NCBI GenBank assembly: GCA_903827245.1
Contig: CAIKHO010000084.1
Location: forward strand, 1-38,422
From: an uncultured Opitutia bacterium
Lineage (GTDB): Bacteria; Verrucomicrobiota; Verrucomicrobiia; Opitutales; Opitutaceae
Reading direction: 5' to 3'
Length of the DNA stretch: 38,422 nucleotides
How positions within the stretch are numbered: the stretch's first letter is position 1; every line of letters begins with the position of its first letter. The position numbers and the translations under genes were made by a program. Under the pieces are notes generated by a model that was given only the letters and a program-made list of their open reading frames with translations, was not told where the DNA came from and did not search any database. Below are positions 19,918-22,783 of the stretch, one piece after another.

Positions 19918-20002
19918 AACCTTCGCGGGGAGACGGTTTTGAGCGGACCGCGACGCAGGTGCGGCTACAGGCTGGCCTGCCAACCGTAGGCTTGGCGAAG
20001 GT

Positions 20003-20026
20003 TGGCGGAGAGGGAGGGATTCGAAC
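20003..20026. other. attL: duplicated tRNA-Ser 3' end
   Basis: These 24 bases, starting TGGCGGAGAGGGAGG, are identical to 22476-22499. They cover the CCA, the discriminator, the acceptor stem and most of the T arm of tRNA-Ser. Identity stops at 20027. This is the partial copy left at the far end after integration. Confidence 0.85.
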
Positions 20027-20145
20027 GCCTCCTTCCGCTCGAAGCTAAGTCGCCTGATTAGCGCGGACTTAGTTGAGGGTTAACGTTTTCTAACACGCAG
20101 ATAAGAGCAGGTAGAACGAACGAGGTGAAGCTAATAACAGGATTT

Positions 20146-20167
20146 TTGGCAACCTTCTGGCAACCTA
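20146..20167. promoter_or_regulatory. Two direct GGCAACCT sites near the left end (candidate integrase arm sites)
   Basis: TTGGCAACCT (20146-20155) and CTGGCAACCTA (20157-20167) are direct copies eleven bases apart. The same core occurs twice near the right end (22416-22443). Short repeated sites inside both ends of an element are what tyrosine integrases use for arm binding. The area 20027-20223 is visibly richer in A+T than its surroundings and has no gene; CTAAGTC/GACTTAG (near 20044-20072) is a further small palindrome. Confidence 0.5.
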
Positions 20168-20223
20168 AACGGATCACACCGCGCTTTCGTTGGCACAATG
20201 ACCAGCATTGCCCAGGGTGCCGC

Positions 20224-20716
20224 GTGAAACCTAACAACCAAAAAAAAGAAGTATCGGAAATGTGAACACTGCGGCCGGCGTTTTTGCGCCGACCCACGGG
20301 TGCGCCAGCGCCAGCGCTATTGCTCACGGCCCACCTGCATCAAGGCCAGCCGAGTGGCGGCCCAGAAGAAATGGCTCCGCAAGGCCGCGAACCGGGATCA
20401 TTTCAAGGGTAGTGTGAACCATCTCCGGGTGCAGGATTGGCGGACCACAAACCCCGGTTACTGGCGGAAGAAGACCCGCCTTGGCCGGTATATTCTGCGA
20501 GGCAAACTCGCCGAGATGGTGCGGGAATTTGCGTTACAAGATATGATTGACGCGCAATTTCTCCTCCTAGCGGGCCTCGTATCTCATCTCACCGGCGTTG
20601 CGTTACAAGATGAGATAGCCTCGGAGATTCGCCGACTTATCCTTCTCGGGCATGGTATCCTTAACGAGACTGCCCAAGCGCCTGCTGCGTCCCGCGAAAG
20701 CGGGCAAAGACCGTAA
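20224..20716 (+). pseudogene. Zinc-ribbon protein of a serine-recombinase unit, frame broken at an A8 tract
   Basis: From GTG 20224 the frame reads MKPNNQKK, then enters a run of eight A (20240-20247). The next frame continues KYRKCEHCGRRF, CADPRVRQRQRYCSRPTC, with Cys pairs CEHC and YCSRPTC that look like a zinc ribbon, then RVAAQKKWLRKAANRDHFKG and NPGYWRK. It ends with a helical tail (EIRRLILLGHGIL). With seven A the whole reads in one frame, so one base has been gained or the tract slips during expression. The in-frame GTG at 20300 would delete the first Cys pair. The stop is nine bases before the recombinase start. From general knowledge, similar CEHCG proteins precede such recombinases in other bacteria; their function is unknown. 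Confidence 0.65.
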
Positions 20717-20725
20717 GCACGGCGA

Positions 20726-21961
20726 GTGACCGGGTGTTCTCAAATGGACGCCCAGACCCAGTTACCGCTACCGCCCGCGACCGGGCACAACCTAATCCCG
20801 GTCGCGGCTTACGTGCGAATGTCCACGGAGCACCAGCAGTATTCCACGGAGAACCAACTCGACCGTGTGAAGGAATACGCCGCCCGGCGCGGGATGGAGA
20901 TTGTCCGGGTGTTCGCCGACGAGGGCAAAAGCGGTCTCAGCATGAAAGGCCGCGATAGCCTGCGCCGGATGATTGCAGAGGTGGAGGCTGGCAAAACCGA
21001 ATTTAAGGCCATCCTGGCCTACGATGTCAGCCGATGGGGTCGGTTTCAGGATGCCGACGAGAGCGGTTATTATGAATACATCTGTAAGCGCGCCGGCATC
21101 GCCGTCCACTATTGCGCGGAGCAGTTTGAAAACGATGGCAGCCCGACATCGAACATCATCAAAAGCGTCAAACGCTCGATGGCCGGCGAATACAGCCGGG
21201 AGCTTTCGACGAAGGTCTTTCAGGGAGCCTGCCGGTTGATCCAAATGGGATTCAAACAGGGCGGCTCTGCCGGGTTTGGATTGCGCCGGATGCTCATCGA
21301 CCAGGCCGGCCAGCCGAAGGGCGCGCTTAAGTTTGGCGAGCAGAAGAGCCTTCAGACCGACCGCGTGGTGCTGGTGCCGGGTCCAGAGGAGGAGCAGGAA
21401 ATCGTCCGCGGGATCTACCGGGCGTTTCTCGACGGGAAAACCGAACGCGAAATTGCGGATGCTCTGAATGAGAAGAAAATCCTCACCGACCTCGGCCGGG
21501 CATGGACCCGAGGCACCATCCATCAAATCCTCACCAACGAGAAATACATCGGCAACAGCGTCTATCACCGCACTTCATTCAAATTGAAGCGTAAGCACAT
21601 CCTGAATCCTCCTGAAATGTGGATTCGGTCGGACAAAGCGTTCCCGGCGGTAGTCGATCCGGCGCTATTCGCGCAGGCGCAGGTAGCCATCCTGGCACGA
21701 GCCAAACGCTATTCCGACGAGGAGATGCTGACCGCATTGAAGGACCTATGGACACGCCACGGGCGGGTTTCAGGACTGCTGATCGATGAGCAGGACAGTA
21801 TGCCCTCCAGTGCTGCTTTCCGGCACCGCTTCGGCAGTCTGGTCCGGGCCTATCAGTTGGTCGGCTACACGCCCCGGACGGACTATGCTTTTCTGGAGAT
21901 CACCCGTTGGCCCGCTGGAAATACGTCGTCAGCTTTGCCGCCGTCAGTTCGGCGACCGTGA
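20726..21961 (+). CDS. Large serine recombinase, C-terminus replaced at a junction
   Basis: 411 residues from GTG 20726 (ATG at 20744 is an alternative). The resolvase domain has the nucleophile Ser33 in AAYVRMSTEHQQYSTENQ, the Arg-containing YDVSRWGRFQD (99-109) and the helix after SMAGEYSRELSTKV. A recombinase domain follows with EREIADALNEKKILTDLG and WTRGTIHQILTNEKYIGNSV. Near the end, RHRFGSLVRAYQLVGYTPRT, DYAFLEI agrees with relatives to residue 392 (codon at 21899). The last 19 residues (TRWPAGNTSSALPPSVRRP) are read antisense through the integrase gene. In relatives the chain continues after this point, so it is truncated; activity is uncertain. Confidence 0.85.
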   Translation: MTGCSQMDAQTQLPLPPATGHNLIPVAAYVRMSTEHQQYSTENQLDRVKEYAARRGMEIVRVFADEGKSGLSMKGRDSLRRMIAEVEAGKTEFKAILAYDVSRWGRFQDADESGYYEYICKRAGIAVHYCAEQFENDGSPTSNIIKSVKRSMAGEYSRELSTKVFQGACRLIQMGFKQGGSAGFGLRRMLIDQAGQPKGALKFGEQKSLQTDRVVLVPGPEEEQEIVRGIYRAFLDGKTEREIADALNEKKILTDLGRAWTRGTIHQILTNEKYIGNSVYHRTSFKLKRKHILNPPEMWIRSDKAFPAVVDPALFAQAQVAILARAKRYSDEEMLTALKDLWTRHGRVSGLLIDEQDSMPSSAAFRHRFGSLVRAYQLVGYTPRTDYAFLEITRWPAGNTSSALPPSVRRP

Positions 21962-22412
21962 CACCGGGGAAGTGTATTTTCAGCGCCTTCATGTGCCGGT
22001 TGATCGTCGTGAGCTGGGACGCCGAAATGAGCTTCTGCTCATGCTCCCGCGTTTTTATCACGAGATAGGCGGCGACCGCCTCATCCAGTGCCTTCTGATT
22101 TTCAGGCGTGCGGTGGTTGGTCAGCGCGTAATCGACGCAGAAGGACAGCGTGCGACTACCGCCAGCCAGCCGCCGGAAAACGGCTTCGGCCTCGCGGACT
22201 TGATCCTCAGCGAGGCAGGTGGTGACGGCGCTTAGGCTCGACGCCAGTTGCAGCGCCTTGAGTTCAAGGACGCTCTTTTCGGCGGCAGCCTCCTCCTGAC
22301 TCTTGAAGTTGCGGCGGATGCGGACGCCGTTGAGCTGGCCATCGACGCGGAACGAGAACACGCCGTTCCGGTTCTTAAACCGGCTGACAGCGAACATAGG
22401 TTGGACATTCAT
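21900..22412 (-). pseudogene. Tyrosine integrase, N-terminal half only
   Basis: From ATG 22412 the protein has the phage-integrase arm-binding region (VSRFKNRNGVFSFRVDGQLN, GVRIRRNFKSQEEAAAEK). A SAM-like core-binding domain follows (LDEAVAAYLVIKTREHEQKL, SASQLTTINRHMKALKIHFP, GVTVAELTAAKLTTYF). It ends at TGA 21902-21900 after 170 residues. The catalytic Arg...HxxR...Tyr domain is missing. The stop coincides with the point where the opposite-strand recombinase leaves its family sequence, so one junction truncated both. The gene starts 63 bases from the tRNA and reads into the element, the standard integrase position. Confidence 0.8.
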
Positions 22413-22415
22413 GCT

Positions 22416-22443
22416 TAGGTTGCCACGTCAACTTGGCAACCTA
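22416..22443. promoter_or_regulatory. Inverted GGCAACCT sites at the right end (arm sites / integrase operator)
   Basis: AGGTTGCCA (22417-22425) and TGGCAACCT (22434-22442) form a perfect 9-bp inverted pair. The core equals the two direct sites at 20146-20167. The pair lies immediately upstream of the integrase start, so it may serve as both arm binding site and autoregulatory operator. Confidence 0.5.
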
Positions 22444-22475
22444 GCTTCGGGATTCTCCTCCTCAGAGGGGGAAAA

Positions 22476-22565
22476 TGGCGGAGAGGGAGGGATTCGAACC
22501 CCCGGTTCCCTTGCGAGAACACGTGCTTTCCAAGCACGCGCATTCGACCACTCTGCCACCTCTCC
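22476..22565 (-). tRNA. tRNA-Ser (GGA anticodon), CCA encoded
   Basis: On the minus strand the 90-nt sequence begins with acceptor GGAGAGG (22565-22559) and ends CCTCTCC-G-CCA. The anticodon stem-loop is CGTGC-TTGGAAA-GCACG, giving anticodon GGA. The long variable arm (TGTTCTCGCAAGGGAACC) is typical of a class II serine tRNA, and the T loop is TTCGAAT. Its 3' end forms the right attachment site of the integrated element, and the complete gene is kept. A -35-like TTGACC on its strand (22647-22642) has no convincing -10 partner. Confidence 0.95.
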
Positions 22566-22783
22566 GGTGTCCGGCCCGCCGGGCTTTCACGGCATTTCCT
22601 TCGGGCGAAGGGGCAAGACAAAGGGTGAAGCCCCGGCATGGGTCAACGGAAAATCTACTCCACGGCATCACGGGTGCTGTAGAACGATCATGCGCGGCAA
22701 AGATTCCAGAAAAGCATCTTGCGCGACCTTCCGCGGGTGGTACGGTCCGACGGTTTACGACTTCACTTCCACGCCTTCCGAAC

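Follow-up and report, generated by a model that had tools for sequence, protein, structure and literature searches.

The subject of this analysis is a small integrative element at a tRNA-Ser gene of an uncultured Opitutia bacterium of the family Opitutaceae. It lies in a stretch of 38,422 nucleotides (the window; contig CAIKHO010000084.1 of GenBank assembly GCA_903827245.1), one of the 91 contigs that make up a draft genome of 3.55 Mb. The element spans 2,473 bp between exact 24-bp repeats and is very probably what an internal deletion left of a single tRNA-Ser integrative island; a serine recombinase gene and a tyrosine integrase gene, read from opposite strands, both break off in it at a single join. 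From left to right it contains an attachment (att) repeat, ca. 200 bp of non-coding DNA, a zinc-finger gene referred to here as CEHCG, the serine recombinase (plus strand) and a fragment of the tyrosine integrase (minus strand), the latter beginning just within the tRNA end. An earlier note, drawn from the sequence of the window, had seen two recombinases colliding at one junction and offered two causes, the insertion of a serine-recombinase unit into the integrase gene or a deletion fusing two neighbouring elements. The features which carry the present account are given below, L041 and L225 being related loci described in the next section.

20003–20026, plus strand: distal att repeat, a copy of the tRNA-Ser 3′ end and the left border (exact repeat; L041 homology begins here and empty sites join here)
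20726–21961, plus strand: truncated serine recombinase, 411 aa from GTG 20726 (405 aa from ATG 20744), Resolvase and Recombinase domains present, C-terminal domain lost
21901–21902, no strand: junction attributed to deletion, a CA overlap (2 bp) common to both parents (L041/L225 comparison)
21902–21958, plus strand: 19 foreign recombinase residues (393–411) from antisense integrase DNA
21900–22412, minus strand: N-terminal fragment of the tyrosine integrase, 170 aa, with a TGA stop created by the junction (TGC in L225; comparison with L225)
22476–22565, minus strand: tRNA-Ser(GGA), the integration target, with the tRNA-side att at 22476–22499 (tRNA gene and repeat)

Borders, junction and parental sequences

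The two repeats at 20003–20026 and 22476–22499 are identical, and the right copy forms the 3′ end of tRNA-Ser(GGA), in agreement with the earlier description of att repeats at this gene. No third copy is present in the window at up to 3 mismatches, and 100 shuffles gave none. In the related loci L176 (genome G031) and L178 (genome G029) the DNA left of 20003 is fused directly to tRNA-Ser, and these empty sites indicate that the borders of the element are exact and that the GIY-YIG gene and the rest of the left flank belong to the host. Having both border repeats and an empty site in relatives, the element belongs with tRNA-Ser integrative islands. Additional partial copies of the tRNA-Ser 3′ end occur near the tRNA at L169:8410–8433 and L162:971–994, as if from earlier islands.

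The left side of the element is matched by L041, a possibly misbinned contig under the genome label Pseudolabrys, which aligns with window positions 20002–21906, from att to the join, over 1,905 gap-free columns at 93% identity; the first 30 bases of L041, left of att, are unlike the window. Beyond the join L041 continues into the remainder of a 521-residue recombinase, two ParB/RepB genes (PF07506, PF02195), HsdM and HsdS, with an HsdR gene, by reading of the frame, near the contig end. The right side, 21901–22566, is matched by L224, L225 and L226 at 94, 94 and 91%, all of which encode a full-length integrase. The search for intact relatives which the earlier note had advised recovered both kinds, a complete integrase on the tRNA-Ser side and a complete CEHCG-recombinase unit. 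L041 and L225 both read CA at 21901–21902, each agreeing with the window on the opposite side, and identity calculated per 20 nt switches parent within a single bin, at 21900. The break is placed at these two bases; the interval first proposed was 21899–21902. The junction converts a TGC codon to TGA, ending the integrase, and the recombinase reads on through the 19 residues that had already been suspected of antisense integrase origin, an origin which the comparison confirms. The lost parts, namely integrase residues 171–406, the recombinase tail and both ParB genes, have only chance-level matches in the window.

Among the matches listed for 252 genomes of the family, the best on the integrase side are G194, G185, G208 and G220, with 91–95% DNA identity over more than 500 bp; L224, L225, L226 and L227 derive from G194, G185, G220 and G208, respectively. 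A decayed copy of the integrase side is present in G026 (95% over 242 bp), and the window's own place is the only one of those listed to span both sides.

The integrase of the window stops at residue 170, compared with ca. 406 residues at full length. Window residues 1–170 align with the 406-aa integrase of L225 at 96%, or 1–174 when the stop is read through. In L225 the R, HxxR and Y motifs, recognised by eye and presumably catalytic, begin at residues ~249, ~329 and ~364; as they lie past the break, the window fragment holds none of them, which bears out the suggestion that the catalytic domain is missing. The window gene, being cut at residue 170, is classed as a remnant, and a catalytic integrase beside the tRNA is found in L224, L225 and L226. 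The 9 full-length reference relatives measure 396–423 residues, and relatives shorter than these are broken ones, at scattered residues. From the matches of several searches 79 integrase places were picked and sorted by hand, so that the following counts are not a rate: 49 are full-length (including L127, with a 405-aa frame), 6 run off their contig and 24 are broken or interrupted (the window and L167 included), at residues from ~6 to 317 and in a few cases by frameshifts or stops. A common hot spot for breakage was considered and is not supported, the breaks in relatives being scattered along the gene. In L227 (G208:C7) the integrase is broken at residue 154 and runs in frame into a long protein of relaxase-helicase appearance (a 690-codon frame). 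Viral contigs yielded three distant integrase matches.

The recombinase of the window departs from its family at residue 392 of 411. It retains the Resolvase N-terminal domain (PF00239, 3.2e-23) and the Recombinase domain (PF07508, 4.9e-24), both also present in L041, and is accordingly a member of the large serine recombinases. Relatives numbered 231, of which 80 were examined, and all counts per 80 refer to these; 78 of them extend to at least residue 442 (L041 numbering) and the other 2 end at a contig edge. Other broken copies exist, L034 matching residues 4–133 only, with a stop, and L233 an inner piece only.

Recombinase codons before the break differ from L041 by 4 non-synonymous and 84 synonymous changes, giving a ratio of non-synonymous to synonymous substitution rates (dN/dS) of 0.012. 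The corresponding values are 0.07 and 0.13 for the integrase fragment, against L224 and L225, respectively, and 0.21 for the CEHCG gene. Although these ratios chiefly record the period before the deletion, both residual frames are open and non-synonymous changes in the recombinase are few, and on these grounds the deletion looks recent.

A probable single island and the alternatives

Short repeats at the two ends of the element are read as putative integrase arm sites.

20148–20167, plus strand: GGCAACCTT and GGCAACCTA direct repeats, putative left-end integrase arm-type sites (the same pair in L041 and L222; weaker in L228)
22416–22443, no strand: inverted GGCAACCTA pair, putative right-end integrase arm-type sites (repeat search)

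In the 38-kb window GGCAACCTA occurs three times, where 0.04 copies are expected, and all three lie within the element, one at the left end and two at the right. These end repeats (GGCAACCTT/GGCAACCTA) are kept in L041, L222 and L225, and in L226 and L229 the right-end pair is well kept and the left-end pair poorly so. L226 has tRNA-Ser(GGA), a 401-aa integrase, an att with one mismatch ~3.5 kb further on and a left end 76% alike; this is the layout of a small island that is intact at either end. L222 combines a 404-aa integrase of the same subfamily, an exact att, a left end at 73% and a 521-residue recombinase, followed by two frames read as a ParB pair and then HsdM- and HsdS-like genes; its integrase end and its recombinase-module end meet at one att. 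The layouts of L226 and L222, together with GGCAACCTA at both ends, imply that both ends come from a single family of islands.

The simplest and most likely account is an internal deletion, which as an event is nothing out of the ordinary. The intact arrangement, as composed from L041, L222, L225 and L226, would run att, left arm sites, CEHCG, serine recombinase, ParB1, ParB2, cargo, integrase, right arm sites and tRNA-Ser, with the tyrosine integrase pointing inward and cargo such as type I restriction genes. Repeats, empty sites and intact relatives suggest that the tyrosine integrase inserted such an island at the tRNA 3′ end. A later single end-joining event, using the 2 bp of shared sequence seen at the join, would have removed everything from recombinase codon 392 to integrase codon 170, that is, the recombinase C-terminal domain, the intervening DNA and the integrase catalytic domain, as well as both ParB genes if the ancestor resembled L041 or L222. 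Self-excision is not expected of the remnant; the host genome gave no close intact integrase and no further integrase of the same subfamily, its other matches being 24–26% identical. Of the deletion envisaged in the earlier note, the removal of both gene ends is retained, and the fusion of two different elements is not, since the evidence favours one island losing its middle.

Several observations weigh against a single-island origin. No contig was found with the module and the integrase at opposite ends of one integrated island; L041 ends inside the cargo at 10,627 bp, and in L222 the ends meeting at one att could represent a tandem or circular form. L094 has a subfamily integrase beside the module, but no att between them at up to 6 mismatches. 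The left and right sides of the element have different best relatives, the left-end arm repeats of L226 are poorly kept, and the host genome is a 91-contig draft. An alternative, close to the second cause offered in the earlier note, places two tandem islands of the same family at this tRNA-Ser, with a deletion that reached from the left island's recombinase into the right island's integrase and took out the intervening att. In L222 and L229 an integrase end and a left end do meet at one att, and the host genome holds further island ends, at C6:1–348 (94%) and C2:211–379. The tandem arrangement, however, requires an extra island for the same product, and no third att is present in the window; it is considered unlikely.

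Insertion of a serine-recombinase unit into the integrase gene, with loss of both ends, draws some support from the many contexts in which the module occurs: a subfamily integrase is nearby at high identity only in L094 and L222 of 84 loci (the 80 recombinase relatives and 4 from viral contigs; the integrase of L094 was among the queries, and many loci end early). The left block is nevertheless continuous with att in L041, no 3′ part of the integrase is present to the left of the recombinase, and the inserted unit would need to end exactly at the tRNA att, so that this first cause proposed in the earlier note is contradicted and extremely improbable. An assembly chimera is very unlikely: the genome is a draft with related island ends elsewhere, but the parents share only 2 bp at the join, and neither att copy and neither host flank is missing. 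Assemblers need an overlap far above 2 bp. Lastly, that both proteins work as natural short forms, the recombinase at 411 residues and the integrase at 170, has next to no probability. The recombinase does keep its catalytic and Recombinase domains and a very low dN/dS; against this stand the relatives that run well beyond the break in 78 of 80 cases, the lengths of the nine reference integrases, the motifs of the L225 integrase past residue 170 and the lack of any other genome with this junction among the listed matches.

The loss of the middle of one island resembles what is described for tRNA-targeted genomic islands and grounded prophages with lost integrase function, where att repeats, a tRNA 3′ end as target and an integrase next to the tRNA are followed by later loss of integrase and cargo (PMC6379469). 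What differs here is the tail-to-tail fusion, at one junction, of two recombinase genes that belong to one island but are unrelated to each other.

The further island ends of the host genome both lie at contig edges. The left end, L223:1–348 (G000:C6), carries an A8 site of the kind described below; the right end, L167:211–379 (G000:C2), adjoins tRNA-Ser(TGA) and keeps ~6 integrase codons. They may be the two ends of one second island. ParB2 gave no match in the host genome, in a search without a positive control. A sequence of ~140 bp at L223:3041–3190 recurs in many contigs of this genome, on both strands and at ~72–97%, like a dispersed inverted-repeat element.

The zinc-finger gene and its A run

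The gene upstream of the recombinase lacks an in-frame start upstream of its CxxC codons in the window, and is arranged as follows.

20224–20716, plus strand: CEHCG zinc-finger gene; its GTG at 20224 lies in the −1 frame and overlaps the TGA ahead of the CxxC frame, which opens at 20228 and has its stop at 20714–20716
20240–20247, plus strand: A8 run, putative slippage or frameshift site, between the start and CxxC

Thirty loci were given and 25 CEHCG genes scored, as L049, L051, L060, L075 and L084 gave no CxxC frame; in a wider scan L051 showed A5 and, by reading, an in-frame ATG. An in-frame start is absent from 15 of the 25 genes and present in 10. In every one of the 15 startless genes the run is of exactly eight A, and the −1 frame holds an ATG or GTG 6 or 7 codons upstream; the five re-examined genes among the 10 with an in-frame start have no A run of five or more. 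When the pattern was allowed 5–12 A it gave 19 distinct matches, 18 of which are A8 (some being close kin) and one an A6 in L034, with an in-frame ATG by reading; the distance from start to run is 15 or 16 nt in 18 of the 19. Lysine codons downstream in the 18 A8 genes are AAA in 67 cases and AAG in 59, and exact A8 or T8 runs occur at 0.034 per kb in the examined loci; as this last scan was set to exactly A8, the length of the run is tested by the scored genes and by the 5–12 A pattern. A search for CEHCG in viral contigs found none, though L219 and L222, two of the recombinase loci from viral contigs, hold such a gene, so diverged copies were missed.

Two frames to be joined at a conserved slippery run are therefore present, and the conserved A8 of the startless genes suggests, on sequence grounds, programmed frameshifting or transcriptional slippage. 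The frame required is +1, and the protein would result from an RNA carrying 7 or 10 A or from a ribosomal shift of +1. Phase variation is less likely because neither A7 nor A10 was seen. Runs of more than seven A are named as sites of transcriptional frame change in the literature (PMC3711429), and the genes treated there share a conserved A run where two frames join. The difference is that the run here sits in a zinc-finger gene that precedes a serine recombinase; the words “recombinase” and “zinc” are absent from the main text of that paper.

The recombinase module and its lost domain

The recombinase is commonly followed by the ParB pair, with ParB1 matches in 73 of 80 recombinase loci and ParB2 matches in 70 of 80. 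Record titles place the examined relatives in Verrucomicrobia, Planctomycetes, Acidobacteria, Alphaproteobacteria and a small number of other groups. Recombinase relatives are found on 61 plasmid records at an expect value (E) of 1e-50, 60 of them with at least 80% query cover, and in 4 phage records at E 1e-20, one with at least 80%; viral contigs gave four recombinase loci. PADLOC returned strong matches for HsdM and HsdS, a weak methyltransferase match for ParB2 and no model matching the recombinase, ParB1 or the CEHCG gene. A description of the module was not recognised in the open-access literature searched, so that this absence is weak. Another tRNA-Ser(GGA) locus, L050:3874–11093, has the recombinase-ParB module with an incomplete ParB2 and a different integrase-like gene, seemingly shortened.

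The part of the recombinase removed from the window is intact in L041.

L041:1904–2335: recombinase C-terminal domain, absent from the window, with a predicted PD-(D/E)XK-like fold

In a model of the full-length L041 protein (mean predicted local distance difference test, pLDDT, 70.7), residues 14–321 align with known serine integrases (9y66, 9dxh). The C-terminal part modelled alone, from 64 sequences, reached a pLDDT of 80.7. Its best Foldseek match was the homing endonuclease I-Ssp6803I (E 6.3e-05, template modelling (TM) scores 0.47/0.49), the only one of 315 below 0.001, and VIA compared the two with Z 9.0, a root-mean-square deviation of 3.9 and 122 aligned positions. The next structural matches were Holliday junction resolvases and restriction enzymes, which we take to belong to the PD-(D/E)XK superfamily. 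The lost domain is on this modest match predicted to have a PD-(D/E)XK-like fold. Three results weigh against that fold: a profile of the 64 sequences gave nothing useful against solved chains, no Pfam family matches the L041 C-terminal domain, and a (D/E)-x-K motif is not evident by eye in the 64-sequence consensus, which shows P-D and then ITIAVR and conserved arginines. As there is no clear (D/E)-x-K motif, the domain is not claimed as a nuclease. I-Ssp6803I and other PD-(D/E)XK nucleases thus share the predicted fold, and differ in showing 13–20% identity to the domain and no relationship by sequence profile.

With the integrases SPbeta YokA, Bxb1 and PhiC31 the recombinase shares the Resolvase and Recombinase (PF07508) domains of large serine recombinases. 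Unlike them, full-length L041 has no zinc-ribbon profile listed at E 0.01; it has an HNH-repeat-like stretch, below the Pfam cut-off, the predicted PD-(D/E)XK-like C-terminus and two ParB/RepB genes after it. Tentatively, although as a serious possibility, the zinc-finger gene, the serine recombinase with a nuclease-fold domain in place of the zinc ribbon and the two ParB/RepB genes, whose DNA-binding products would act together with the recombinase, may form an undescribed mobile or defence-linked system under the control of A8 slippage; in the window copy the deletion would coincide almost exactly with the nuclease-fold domain (and presumably take in the ParB genes), the slippage site being intact.

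With the collision placed to the base, one deletion would have immobilised a tRNA island, and the module is the part worth following. If A8 slippage and the nuclease-like domain were confirmed, the module would count as a recombinase system that is widespread and has an unusual step in its control.

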